Assembly (NCBI GenBank): GCA_016930175.1
Contig: JAFGHJ010000022.1
Location: 1 to 48,854, forward strand
Direction of reading: 5' to 3'
DNA length: 48,854 nt
DNA from: Caldifarciminota bacterium
GTDB taxonomy: Bacteria > Hydrothermota > UBA3072
In this document: in pieces, positions 37,616-42,239 of the stretch
Layout: every line of letters begins with the position of its first letter
Position numbering within the stretch: position 1 is the stretch's first letter
Position numbers and translations under genes: made by a program
Notes under the pieces: model-generated
Database searches by the model: none
What the model was told of the DNA's origin: nothing
Seen by the model: the letters and a program-made list of their open reading frames with translations, nothing else

Positions 37616-38294
37616 TGTTATAACAGCGCTTAGGGATGTTAAAAAAAGTTTTTTATCCGGGAAAGAAGAAATAAGTGTCTTGCAAGATGTTAATTTAGAA
37701 ATCGAAGAAGGTGATTTTATTACCATAAGTGGTCCTTCAGGTTCCGGGAAGAGCACACTCCTTCACATTCTGGGCGGTTTACTTCATCCTGATAGTGGAG
37801 AAGTTATTCTTCAAGGGAAGTCTCTTTATAAATATCCGGATCAGAGACTTGCAAAGATAAGAAATGAGAAAATAGGATTTATATTTCAGTTTCATCACCT
37901 GCTTCTTGATTTTACCGTATTGGAAAATTTAGCTATACCACTTTTGATAAAGGGCAGTACCATTGGAAAAGCTTATAAAGAGGCGGAAAAGTTGTTAGCT
38001 CTGGTGGATCTTAGCGGCAGGATTTATGCCAAACCCAGGACTCTTTCGGGAGGAGAAAGGCAAAGGGTTGCGGTACTTCGTGCTATTATAAATCATCCAT
38101 TATTGCTTCTTGCTGACGAGCCTACAGGCGATTTAGATCGTGCACATGCAAGTGTAATTTTGCAGATGTTGAGTAAAATTCATAAAGAAAGAGGAATGAC
38201 AGTGGTTCTAGTCAGTCATAATCAGAGGGTTGCAAAAATGGGTGAAAAAACATATAATTTAATTGAAGGAAGATTGAAACGTAATGAAATGTGA
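37608..38294 (+). CDS. lolD: Lipoprotein-releasing ABC transporter ATP-binding protein
   Basis: 228 residues, normal for LolD. Walker A GPSGSGKST near residue 43, Q-loop FIFQFHHLLLDFTVLENLA, signature LSGGERQRVA near 146, Walker B LLLADEPTGDLD near 163, and switch His in VLVSHNQR. The MacB/LolD-specific spacing and the preceding LolC/E permease identify it. Its stop overlaps the mcsA start by 11 nt, tying lipoprotein transport to the mcs-clp genes in one transcript. Confidence 0.93.
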   Translation: MSNVITALRDVKKSFLSGKEEISVLQDVNLEIEEGDFITISGPSGSGKSTLLHILGGLLHPDSGEVILQGKSLYKYPDQRLAKIRNEKIGFIFQFHHLLLDFTVLENLAIPLLIKGSTIGKAYKEAEKLLALVDLSGRIYAKPRTLSGGERQRVAVLRAIINHPLLLLADEPTGDLDRAHASVILQMLSKIHKERGMTVVLVSHNQRVAKMGEKTYNLIEGRLKRNEM

Positions 38295-38751
38295 ATTATG
38301 CGGAATTAATAATGCAAAATATAAGTATTATGAAGTAGACTCTGATACTGTTAGGGAGATAAATATTTGTGAAGAGTGTGCCAGAGAAAAAGGTATAGAC
38401 ATTAAAAACAAAGAGGATGCTATTGTAGCTAAAAGCGGAACATGTCCTTCCTGTGGTCTTACTTTCAAGGAGTATAAAGATTCCGGTAATCTGGGATGTG
38501 TTCAATGTTATAAGAGTTTTAAGGACCAGATTAAGATATTTCTTAAAGAATCGCAATTGGGCGTTGTGCATAAAGGAAAAGAACCTGTTGGAAATAGTAA
38601 GCTTATTTTTGTGAAAAAGGAAATCCTGGAGATGAAAAAGAAGCTGGATGATTTTGTAGAGGATGAAAAGTTCGAGGAAGCTGTTAAGTTAAGGGATAAG
38701 ATTGAAGAAAGAAAGGAAGAACTTAAAACTATAAGGAAAAAAAATGATTGA
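38284..38751 (+). CDS. mcsA: McsA-like zinc-finger adaptor with UVR motif
   Basis: 155 residues. An N-terminal pair of CxxC knuckles (CELC at 3-6 and CEEC at about 29-32) precedes a second set (CPSC near 55 and CVQC near 73). The C-terminal UVR/UvrB-C-like helix pair is LDDFVEDEKFEEAVKLRDKI. In Firmicutes McsA activates the arginine kinase McsB and helps ClpC. All metal ligands appear intact here. It overlaps lolD and mcsB (by eight nt). Confidence 0.9.
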   Translation: MKCELCGINNAKYKYYEVDSDTVREINICEECAREKGIDIKNKEDAIVAKSGTCPSCGLTFKEYKDSGNLGCVQCYKSFKDQIKIFLKESQLGVVHKGKEPVGNSKLIFVKKEILEMKKKLDDFVEDEKFEEAVKLRDKIEERKEELKTIRKKND

Positions 38752-39784
38752 TTCTTTATTAGATAGTCTGCCTGTATGGTTAGAAAAGGTTGGTCCTTAT
38801 TCTGATATGGTTTTGTTTTCCAAGGTTTCCCTTTATCGTAACTTAGGAGGATATAATTTTAATAAGAAAAATTCAGATAAAGAGAGAGAAGAACTTTTGG
38901 AATTACTTATTGAGGGCGTATCAACTAATTCTTCTTTTGAGAATCTTATTCCATTAAAGGATATGAAAGATGATGAAAAGGAGCTTTTTGCGGAGAGGAA
39001 TTTCATCTCGAGAAATGAAGTAAAGGATTGTCGCTTTCTTGGTTTGGCTTTAAATGATTTGCAGAATAATGAGGTTCTTTTAAATTCTGAAGAACACATT
39101 AAAATATCATGCGTCGCAGGTGAACTATCTCTTAAAGAAACATTTATTCGGTGTGATAGTTTAGATGATGAGTTAAACGAAGAATTCGGTTTTGCGTATG
39201 ATAATGAATTCGGGTTTTTTACATCTTCGACCGGGAAAGTTGGAACAGGCATGGTGGTTTCCGCAGTAGTTCATCTTCCTGCTCTTGTTATTACTGGTAA
39301 ATTTGTAGATATTATTGACGACCTCGAAGATTCTCTTTTCTCGATAGGGGGTTTTTTTAATATAGGTGAAACTGTTGAGGGAAGTTACTTTGAAGTAAGC
39401 AATAAATTTACGCTGGGTGTTTCTGAAGAAGAAATTCTTAAAATGTTCGAAAAAAAGATTAAAAGTGTAATTGATGGGGAAGTAAGTAGTAGAGAATATT
39501 TAACTCAAAAAGTAGGATATGAGACAGAGGATAAAATCTGGAGGTCTTATGGTATATTGAAGAATGCGAGGATTTTATCTGTTACCGACTTCCTTAATTT
39601 GACTGCCGCAGTAAGACTTGGTGTGAGTTTAGGTATTGTAAGGGATATTAAGATTACGGATTTGAATAAATGGCTTTTTCAGGCCCTTCCAGGGCACTTA
39701 AGAGTTTTGAATGAAGAAGTTACTAATAAACAGGAAGAAAATATACTGAGAGCTAAGCTGATTAGGAATCATTTAGGAGGATAG
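38744..39784 (+). CDS. mcsB: McsB-family phosphagen-kinase-like protein, probable pseudokinase
   Basis: 346 residues, aligning end to end with McsB (N-lobe WLEKVGPYSDMVL; C-lobe VGTGMVVSAVVHLPALVITG; VSNKFTLG; C-terminal LRAKLIRNHL). Compared by eye with Bacillus McsB as I remember it, key active-site positions are changed. SSRIRLAR becomes FSKVSLYR (27 and 29); NEEDHIR becomes NSEEHIK (115, 120). The substrate-site Cys in TSCPTN is Ser162 and the Arg of GTGLR is Val171. RGIYGEGSE becomes GGFFNIGET, removing the phosphate-binding Arg (202) and two acidic residues. The fold is kept but arginine phosphorylation is unlikely. It sits between mcsA and clpC, so a structural or adaptor role is plausible. 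Confidence 0.85.
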   Translation: MIDSLLDSLPVWLEKVGPYSDMVLFSKVSLYRNLGGYNFNKKNSDKEREELLELLIEGVSTNSSFENLIPLKDMKDDEKELFAERNFISRNEVKDCRFLGLALNDLQNNEVLLNSEEHIKISCVAGELSLKETFIRCDSLDDELNEEFGFAYDNEFGFFTSSTGKVGTGMVVSAVVHLPALVITGKFVDIIDDLEDSLFSIGGFFNIGETVEGSYFEVSNKFTLGVSEEEILKMFEKKIKSVIDGEVSSREYLTQKVGYETEDKIWRSYGILKNARILSVTDFLNLTAAVRLGVSLGIVRDIKITDLNKWLFQALPGHLRVLNEEVTNKQEENILRAKLIRNHLGG

Positions 39785-39788
39785 AAAT

Positions 39789-42239
39789 ATGTTTATGGAT
39801 GAGAGATTTACAAAAAAACTTATAGATGTTGTAAAAATATCAAAGGATTTGACACGTGAAGCGGGGTTGGGTGAAGTAACACCTGTTATCCTTTTGCTTG
39901 CTATATTGAAACACGGAAATAACATTGCGGTTACCGTAATTGAAGAGGTGGGAGTAGATATTGAGTTACTTGAGAATCGAATATTGAGACTCGTTAAAAG
40001 TAATGAAGATATGTTTATTGTGGAACAGCCTATTGGATTGTCTGAGGATTCTCTTAATATTCTTGAGGAGGCAAAGGAAGAGGCTCTAATGCTCGGCAGG
40101 CAAATAATAGGTACAGAGCACCTTTTGCTTTCTTTACTTAAGGCAAAAGAAGGTTCTTTTATTGAAATTCTAAAACCGGAAGAACTGGACTACTATTTGG
40201 CGAAACAGACGTTACTTGATCTTTTTGATAAGGAAAAAACAAGCGAAAAGGATAAGGAAAAATCTAAAGGCTCTGTTGATAGATCTCTGGAATTCTATAC
40301 CAGGGACCTTACTGATCTTGCAAAGAGAGGCAGGATTGACCCTGTAATTGGCAGGGAATCCGAGATGGAGAGGGTTATTCAAACTTTGTGTCGAAGAAAG
40401 AAGAATAATCCGGTACTTGTTGGTGAGCCCGGGGTTGGTAAGACTGCGATAGTTGAAGGTCTCGCGCAGAGGATTGTTGTCGGTGCAGTACCCAAGATGT
40501 TGCAGGATAAGAAGATTCTTTCCATGGATCTCGCTTCTGTTATAGCCGGAACGAAATATAGGGGTCAATTCGAAAAGAGATTGAAGCAAATACTGGAATC
40601 GTTAAAGGATTCCGAAAATATTCTTTTTATCGATGAAATGCATACTATCGTAGGTGCCGGAGCGGCAGAAGGAGCCATAGATGCTTCTAATATGTTGAAA
40701 CCTGTTTTAGCCAGAGGAGAAATTCAAACAATTGGAGCTACAACCACGGAGGAGTACAGAAAATATATAGAAAAGGATGGCGCTCTCGAGCGTCGATTGC
40801 AGATGATTCTTATAGACCCTCCCACTATAAATGAAACGATAGATATACTAGATGGTATTAAGCGTAAATATGAGGATTTTCATAAAGTTACATATACCGA
40901 CGAAGTAATCAAATCAGCGGTAAAACTTTCCTGTCAATATATTGCGGATAGGAATCTTCCTGATAAAGCGATTGATGTTCTGGATGAAACGGGAGCAAAG
41001 GTGCGGCTAAGGGAGACAAAGGTACCTGATGAAATTGTATCATTGGAGGAAGGGCTACGTAAAGTCAAGGATGAATTGCTTAAAGCCAGGGAAGAAGGGA
41101 AATATGAAGTTGCTATCGAATTGCGAGATAGAAGGGATGAAATAGAAGGCAAATTGGAGAAAAGTCTGGAAGATTGGGGTAGGTATGGAGCGCTTCAAAG
41201 GGTTGAAGTTACTGAAGATGATATAAGAGAAGTTATTTCACTCTGGACCGGAATTCCTCTAAAACGACTCAGGGAAGAAGAGACAGAGCGACTTCTTTCT
41301 ATGGAAGATGAAATTAAGAAGAGACTCGTGGGTCAGGATGAAGCAATCAGAGTGGTTTCTAAAGCAATCAGGAGAAGCAGGGCGGGCTTACGTGATTTGA
41401 GGAGGCCTTTAGGTGCTTTTCTCTTTCTTGGTCCTACTGGAGTGGGGAAAACAGAACTGGCAAAACAACTTGCAAAGTTTCTTTTTAATACAGAAGAAGC
41501 TTTGATTAGGATTGATATGAGTGAATTTATGGAGAGGTTTAATGTTTCCAAGTTAATAGGGGCTCCTCCCGGGTACGTTGGATATGATGAAGGTGGAATT
41601 TTAACCGAGGCTGTCAGAAGAAGACCGTACTCTGTGATTCTCTTGGATGAAATAGAGAAATCTCATCCTGATGTTTATAATGTTCTTCTTCAGGTTTTTG
41701 ATGAAGGTATACTTACGGATGCCTATGGCAGAAAGATTTCTTTTAAAAATACTGTTATTATTATGACTTCAAATATAGGAACTAAGGAGATAATGCGTGG
41801 AACATACGTCGGTTTTAAAAAACCTGATAAGGGAATCAAATATGCGGAGATGAAAGATTATCTCCTCGAAGAGATTAAAGAAAGATTCAGTCCGGAGTTT
41901 TTAAACAGAATAGATGAAAGTGTCGTTTTTCAGTCACTTTATCGGGAAACTATGGTTTCTATCGTAGATATATTCTTCAATGAGGTAAGGGAACGAGTTG
42001 AGGAAAAAGGTTTTGAAATTTCTCTTACAGATGAGGCAAAAGAGTTCTTAATAGAAAAGGGTTTTGATCTGGAATATGGAGCTCGACCTCTGAAGAGAGT
42101 TATGCAGAGACATTTAGAGGATAAATTAGCAGAAGGGTTCTTAAAAGGAAAGTGGAAAAAAGGAAATAAAATAGTGGTTTCCAGAGAGGGTGACAATTTA
42201 GTGTTCTTCTCATCTCGTCCTGTTGCAGAAGTTCTCTAA
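39789..42239 (+). CDS. clpC: ClpC-type AAA+ unfoldase
   Basis: 816 residues, normal for ClpC. Two Clp_N repeats (about 5-75 and 80-145) are followed by AAA-1 with [14 protein letters not shown] and [20 protein letters not shown]. The middle domain with a UVR-like helix pair spans about 410-460 ([20 protein letters not shown]). AAA-2 has [14 protein letters not shown] and [15 protein letters not shown], and the C-terminal D2 domain closes the chain. ClpC feeds substrates to ClpP; clpP is not in this window. In the first Clp_N repeat the GTEH motif that docks phosphoarginine in Bacillus ClpC reads VTPV (Pro32); the second keeps GTEH (108-111). GGAGG lies eight nt upstream. Confidence 0.95.

Follow-up and report, generated by a model that had tools for sequence, protein, structure and literature searches.

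Repeated loss of the arginine kinase active site of McsB in the candidate phylum WOR-3

Introduction

The closest described relatives of the protein studied here are the McsB kinases of Bacillus subtilis (Bsu) and Geobacillus stearothermophilus (Gst). MecA and other ClpC adaptors deliver proteins to ClpCP or activate it independently of phosphorylation, and in the Firmicutes the YwlE-like phosphatase and the TsaC/Sua5-like protein are encoded by separate genes. The active site of Gst McsB is composed of R29, R31, R126, E122, E213 and C168 (PMC12387690). In Bsu McsB, each of the mutations R29K, R31K, R34K, R125K, R176K, R207K and R337K abolishes the kinase signal, and C167S is the mutant customarily used as an inactive kinase; lysine at R255, R272, R281 or R341 leads to the loss of McsA stimulation, whereas autophosphorylation is not lost (PMC7235348). 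In ClpC, the phospho-arginine (pArg) receptor residues are E32 at the pArg2 site and E106 at the pArg1 site, and the pArg pockets, including E106, anchor the resting state (PMC12583610).

Here we describe an McsB homologue encoded in a stretch of 48,854 nucleotides from a Caldifarciminota bacterium (the window), which an original prediction made from the DNA alone had called a probable pseudokinase. It was compared within the window's order (genomes G000–G007) and, at the phylum level, within the lineage called candidate phylum WOR-3.

Results

The open reading frame is a member of the McsB family by descent and fold, and it lies between mcsA and clpC (Table 1). Its best PDB sequence matches are all McsB structures, with E-values of ~1e-51 (phmmer; 8.7e-52 for 6fh1), and it reaches the curated cut-off of none of the five NCBIfam McsB models (its highest score is 268 bits vs. 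385). The AlphaFold2 model had a mean pLDDT of 93.9, high throughout, and superposed on Geobacillus McsB 6fh3 with a Z-score of 43.9 and an rmsd of 2.0 Å over 344 residues, in agreement with the original prediction that the full McsB fold landmarks are kept. The frame, as also predicted, is intact: it starts inside mcsA with an overlap of 8 bases, and clpC starts 4 bases past its stop.

Table 1. Positions of the genes and residues discussed, numbered from the first base of the window, with the basis for each.
Feature	Coordinates	Strand	Basis
mcsA (155 aa)	38284..38751	+	Both CxxC zinc fingers and UVR motif kept
mcsB, predicted pseudokinase (346 aa)	38744..39784	+	PF00217, 125 bits; best PDB sequence matches 6fh1/8wtb/6tv6; AF2 model
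K27 to S29, formerly the essential R29 and R31	38822..38830	+	Alignment; K27 invariant in 8/8 genomes of the order
NSEEHIK (residues 114–120) replacing NEEDHIR; E116 kept, R125 equivalent is K120	39083..39103	+	Alignment
S162 replacing catalytic Cys167	39227..39229	+	Alignment; Ser in 8/8 of the order
V171 replacing Arg176	39254..39256	+	Alignment
Residues 202–210, degenerate lid loop (R207->G, E212->I, E215->T)	39347..39373	+	Alignment
R250 (Bsu R255), McsA-coupling residue, retained	39491..39493	+	Alignment; role from PMC7235348
R267 (Bsu R272), dimer salt bridge and McsA coupling, retained; acidic partner D282	39542..39544	+	Alignment; dimer contact from PMC12387690
E332-N333 replacing phospho-arginine receptor R337-D338	39737..39742	+	Alignment; E332 invariant in the order
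clpC (816 aa)	39789..42239	+	VGF ClpP-docking loop present
ClpC N-terminal domain (NTD), first receptor motif GTEH (E32, pArg2 site) -> TPVI	39879..39890	+	Alignment
ClpC NTD, second receptor motif GTEH (E106, pArg1 site), retained	40110..40121	+	Alignment

Alignment with characterized McsBs confirmed every substitution on the earlier list at the residue given there: Bsu R29 is replaced by K27, R31 by S29, E120 by S115, R125 by K120, C167 by S162, R176 by V171, R207 by G202, E212 by I207 and E215 by T210. To these we add the phospho-arginine receptor pocket, where E332 and N333 stand in place of R337 and D338. At the seven arginines essential in B. subtilis, the window protein thus reads K27, S29, R32, K120, V171, G202 and E332, so that six are replaced and only the R34 equivalent is left; K27 and K120 correspond to the inactivating mutants R29K and R125K. 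Canonical McsBs keep the same arginines in 43/43, 43/43, 43/43, 43/43, 43/43, 42/42 and 40/42 sequences, respectively. The catalytic Cys167 and the lid Glu212 of a functional kinase are likewise absent (S162 and I207), and the catalytic Glu121 is present. This last point corrects the earlier note, as the guanidinium-binding Glu survives as E116 in the window protein (Bsu E121, Gst E122), while the same position is D, K or Q in 6/7 other members of the order. H123 (H118) is also present, as is R34. Shifted active-site residues were ruled out: the alignment held no displaced or gapped Arg or Glu that would restore the site, which had been proposed beforehand as a refutation, and no compensating Arg or Lys was found near it, the only order-wide basic gains being R48 and K309, outside the active-site motifs. 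Arginine-kinase activity has almost certainly been lost from this protein, judging from its sequence. The loss, and with it the call of a probable pseudokinase, is strongly supported because six of the seven essential arginines are replaced, the pattern is fixed across the order and the sister family is under purifying selection.

The residues outside the active site were kept. We compared the 53 alignment columns that show 95% invariance or more across 42 canonical McsBs. Of these, the window protein retained only 2/14 in the active site or pocket compared to 30/39 of the others (Fisher p 6e-5), and the active-site loss is therefore not a matter of chance. R255, R272, R281 and R341 are present in 8/8, 8/8, 7/8 and 8/8 members of the order, and at the dimer contact 31/31 degenerate proteins have Glu or Asp as the salt-bridge partner of R272. 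Full-length mcsB frames were found in all eight genomes of the order and, across 11 families, in the degenerate homologues lying inside contigs. The degenerate pair G006/G007 from the window's sister family (f2) had a dN/dS of 0.115, and four other pseudokinase pairs had values of 0.100, 0.091, 0.082 and 0.060. These five pairs of other families, at 0.06–0.12, together with the full-length frames bear out the expectation that the gene is not decaying. A low-divergence pair from f10 had a dN/dS of 0.34, which says little at a dS of only 0.03. Saturation of dS in the family of the window itself leaves conservation, and not the ratio, as the basis for reading selection there. The data show that McsB is selected for everything needed except phosphoryl transfer and pArg sensing.

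The same changes were found in all eight genomes of the order, each lacking six or seven of seven core residues (scored as five Arg and two Glu). R29, R31, R176 and R337 are kept in none of the eight, and K27, S162 and E332 are invariant, which rules out a sequencing or assembly error. The lolE-lolD-mcsA-mcsB-clpC arrangement is conserved across the order, and the closest families within the class (G008 and G009) have a canonical McsB in the same gene order; the loss therefore happened in place within the operon. A second active McsB elsewhere was ruled out, as a profile search of the window's genome found a single PF00217 gene and no second McsB or other phosphagen-type kinase.

Across WOR-3, a PF00217 gene was present in 122 of 147 genomes, nearly always as one copy. 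Out of 74 aligned McsBs, 41 keep all core residues present and 33, distributed over 11 families, lose one to seven. Families f10 and f5 contain both canonical and degenerate forms, and partial degeneration, with one to three core losses, was seen in others (e.g., G084, G085, G010 and G040). With the active-site columns left out, the McsB tree required eight state changes (8–9 in bootstrap trees), and at least four when only well-supported branches are counted. A single ancient origin of all degenerate McsBs was rejected by the AU test (p-AU 3e-54), with the caution that the tree contains long branches; the degenerate group is defined by active-site columns, which the tree did not use. Within candidate phylum WOR-3, this loss arose on several separate occasions. 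In other phyla, the 76 McsBs that matched best were all canonical (7/7 core residues); as these are the top matches only, more distant degenerate homologues may exist elsewhere. Only 4/187 matches in Planctomycetota had an E-value above 1e-42 vs. ~36/122 in WOR-3. Three WOR-3 families of good completeness (f13, f27 and f32) had no PF00217 match in the whole family and have probably lost McsB outright; f32 and f27 show only short stand-alone LMWPc genes. The B. subtilis control genome, which has mcsB, clpC and ctsR, gave no match to PF00217, Clp_N or CtsR; the operon seems to be missing or withheld in this control, and the control counts for these families are unreliable.

The partners of McsB were then compared. 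The C-terminal zinc finger of McsA is kept in all degenerate lineages and the N-terminal finger in nearly all. A predicted McsA-McsB complex would have both of its sides, with the four-Cys C-terminal zinc finger on McsA and the coupling residues R255, R272, R281 and R341 on McsB. At McsA R96, on which stimulation depends in B. subtilis, several degenerate lineages, the window's among them, carry a non-basic residue; the pattern match behind this is imperfect, and we do not count it as evidence. In family f19 (G055, G035, G043 and G051), McsA is shortened to 106 aa and the first zinc finger is absent. The window's genome encodes a ClpP. CtsR was not found in it and is thereby ruled out as a client.

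In ClpC, the first GTEH motif is remodelled (TPxx/TSEL) in 8/8 genomes of the order and also in f19, vs. 2/31 canonical sequences. E106 is present in all eight of the order, in 25/27 degenerate and in 31/31 canonical ClpC sequences, and the other pseudokinase families mostly keep both motifs. The f19 ClpCs (G035 and G055) have lost both pArg-pocket Glu beside a degenerate McsB. A second ClpC-like ATPase (G000:C29:28199-30547, L251) has an altered first NTD motif (TPLH) and keeps the second GTEH. Clp ATPase frames of ~1000–1070 aa, compared to the usual 800–860, occur in several WOR-3 genomes (G018:C4:42818, G042:C30:193412 and G061:C9:40381) and may stem from a ClpB-like gene that carries inserts or inteins.

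In WOR-3, the YwlE-like phosphatase joins an LMWPc domain and a TsaC/Sua5-like domain in one protein. The fusion was observed at G000:C26:17760-18167 (L193) and in most WOR-3 genomes, in frames of ~320–390 aa. The P-loop position PX5 distinguishes pArg-specific enzymes, which have Thr, from pTyr enzymes, which have Ile (PMC8001253). It was Thr or Ser in 28/33 canonical genomes vs. 9/24 degenerate genomes. The six members of the window's family all have Leu, Lys, Ile or Met there, against a P-loop of CTGNTCRS in the class sisters. The second P-loop Cys is also lost in f19, f21, f25 and f29. Exceptions run both ways, as degenerate f2 and f8 keep a pArg-type P-loop and canonical f10 and f17 are without one. 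The correlation of YwlE and ClpC co-loss was not significant, with YwlE in the right direction and too few independent pairs. The P-loop pattern is suggestive of a withdrawn pArg system, and the phosphatase and ClpC receptor changes together fit the pseudokinase reading, incompletely.

Discussion

Repeated catalytic loss with the partners kept suggests that McsB has a second, phosphorylation-free job, which is probably the delivery of proteins to a protease. We consider it probable that the catalytically dead McsA-McsB complex is kept as a phosphorylation-independent adaptor or activator of ClpCP. We infer that the pseudokinase carries out no arginine phosphorylation and that, with its fold, dimer contacts and McsA coupling kept, it would dimerize and bind McsA; the complex, with McsB in its core, would bind client proteins, dock on the neighbouring ClpC and hand them over to it, with ClpP, encoded elsewhere in the genome. 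There is a precedent in B. subtilis, where the half-life of MgsR was 12.3 min with the kinase-dead McsB-C167S vs. 17.7 min in an mcsB deletion, which the authors read as a kinase-independent adaptor function (PMC7235348). Taken with the kept non-catalytic residues, this precedent is the reason the adaptor is favoured. Against it, the B. subtilis effect is partial and is discussed for ClpX (PMC7235348), and E116 is retained in the window protein. The strict co-retention of McsA with degenerate McsB is also not trivially explained, since the role described for McsA in B. subtilis is to activate the kinase. The E106 pocket, kept in 8/8 ClpCs of the order, could also mean that pArg is still read; its retention is also explicable because the residue anchors the ClpC resting state (PMC12583610).

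The anchoring role of the pArg pockets (PMC12583610) bears on another explanation as well, in which the pseudokinase complex controls the ClpC ATPase and delivers no clients. With the ClpC NTD or M domain as its docking site, McsA-McsB would open ClpC or hold its resting state, substituting for the phospho-arginine signal. The remodelling of the pArg2 motif beside the pseudokinase gene throughout the order agrees with this, but the more important pArg1 site is intact and other pseudokinase families mostly keep both motifs, and we regard such control of ClpC as unlikely, if a real possibility. Less likely still is continued nucleotide binding, with which the protein would serve as a nucleotide sensor or as a kinase of weak or altered activity. 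E116, R32, H118, K27 and K120 are left in the former site, and the families with one to three core losses show that intermediate states exist; yet R29K or R125K alone abolishes activity in B. subtilis (PMC7235348), the other clamp and lid positions have become S29, V171, G202 and I207, and no new conserved basic residue is found near the site. Moreover, relatives are acidic at R176 and R207, opposite to what the phosphates of ATP need, with R176->E in 4/6 and R207->E/D in 4/6 members of the window's family. The original prediction of a system working without arginine phosphorylation, with McsB as a scaffold or nucleotide sensor, thus stands as the best explanation in its main part, in which McsB would serve as scaffold or adaptor. 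Because the charge of the phosphate clamp is reversed in relatives, that role is better supported than a nucleotide sensor, which on this sequence evidence is unlikely.

It is very improbable that mcsB is a relict with no function of its own, persisting only through stabilization of McsA or through its position in a polycistronic operon. Translational overlap with mcsA could preserve the frame locally, but this would leave unexplained the full-length frames of within-contig degenerate homologues in 11 families, the low dN/dS over the gene, the selective retention of 30/39 non-catalytic invariant positions and the high model confidence throughout.

For the phylum as a whole, we add a more tentative suggestion, which we hold to be possible though somewhat doubtful: WOR-3 may have abandoned the arginine-phosphorylation degradation tag several times. 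McsB as the writer, with its pocket for sensing pArg, would have changed together with part of the reader (the ClpC NTD) and with the eraser (the P-loop of the YwlE-like phosphatase), leaving McsA-McsB-ClpC as a purely protein-protein adaptor system.

The question of adaptor versus kinase alone is hard to address in B. subtilis because both roles share one protein. In the natural McsBs that have repeatedly lost catalysis and kept their partners, such a separation of function comes ready-made. From them one would predict that McsA-McsB without kinase activity has a selected role at ClpC, and they supply the residues with which to test it. In open-access full text we found no paper on McsB or phosphagen-kinase-fold pseudokinases, and the degenerate McsBs of WOR-3 seem to form a class of pseudokinases not described before in this fold. 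McsB itself is a known protein, and what is new here is its natural, recurrent pseudokinase form.

Compared to the McsB kinases of B. subtilis and G. stearothermophilus (PDB 6tv6, 6fh1–6fh3), the window protein is alike in its whole-length fold, its McsA and ClpC operon partners and its dimer and McsA-coupling residues. It differs in 6/7 essential arginines, the catalytic Cys, Glu212 and the pArg pocket, and in a genome without CtsR. B. subtilis McsB C167S (PMC7235348) is its laboratory analogue, an inactive kinase with part of its in vivo function left; there, a single change was engineered, whereas here the whole site is naturally gone and the loss is fixed across the order. The phosphagen kinases (arginine and creatine kinase, PF00217) share the fold of the catalytic domain (Z ~22–26, rmsd 2.2–4.1 Å), but the window McsB has no phosphate clamp, and an McsB-type C-terminal dimerization domain replaces their small N-terminal domain. 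MecA and other ClpC adaptors are similar to the proposed working mode of this McsA-McsB by function only, as the folds are unrelated.
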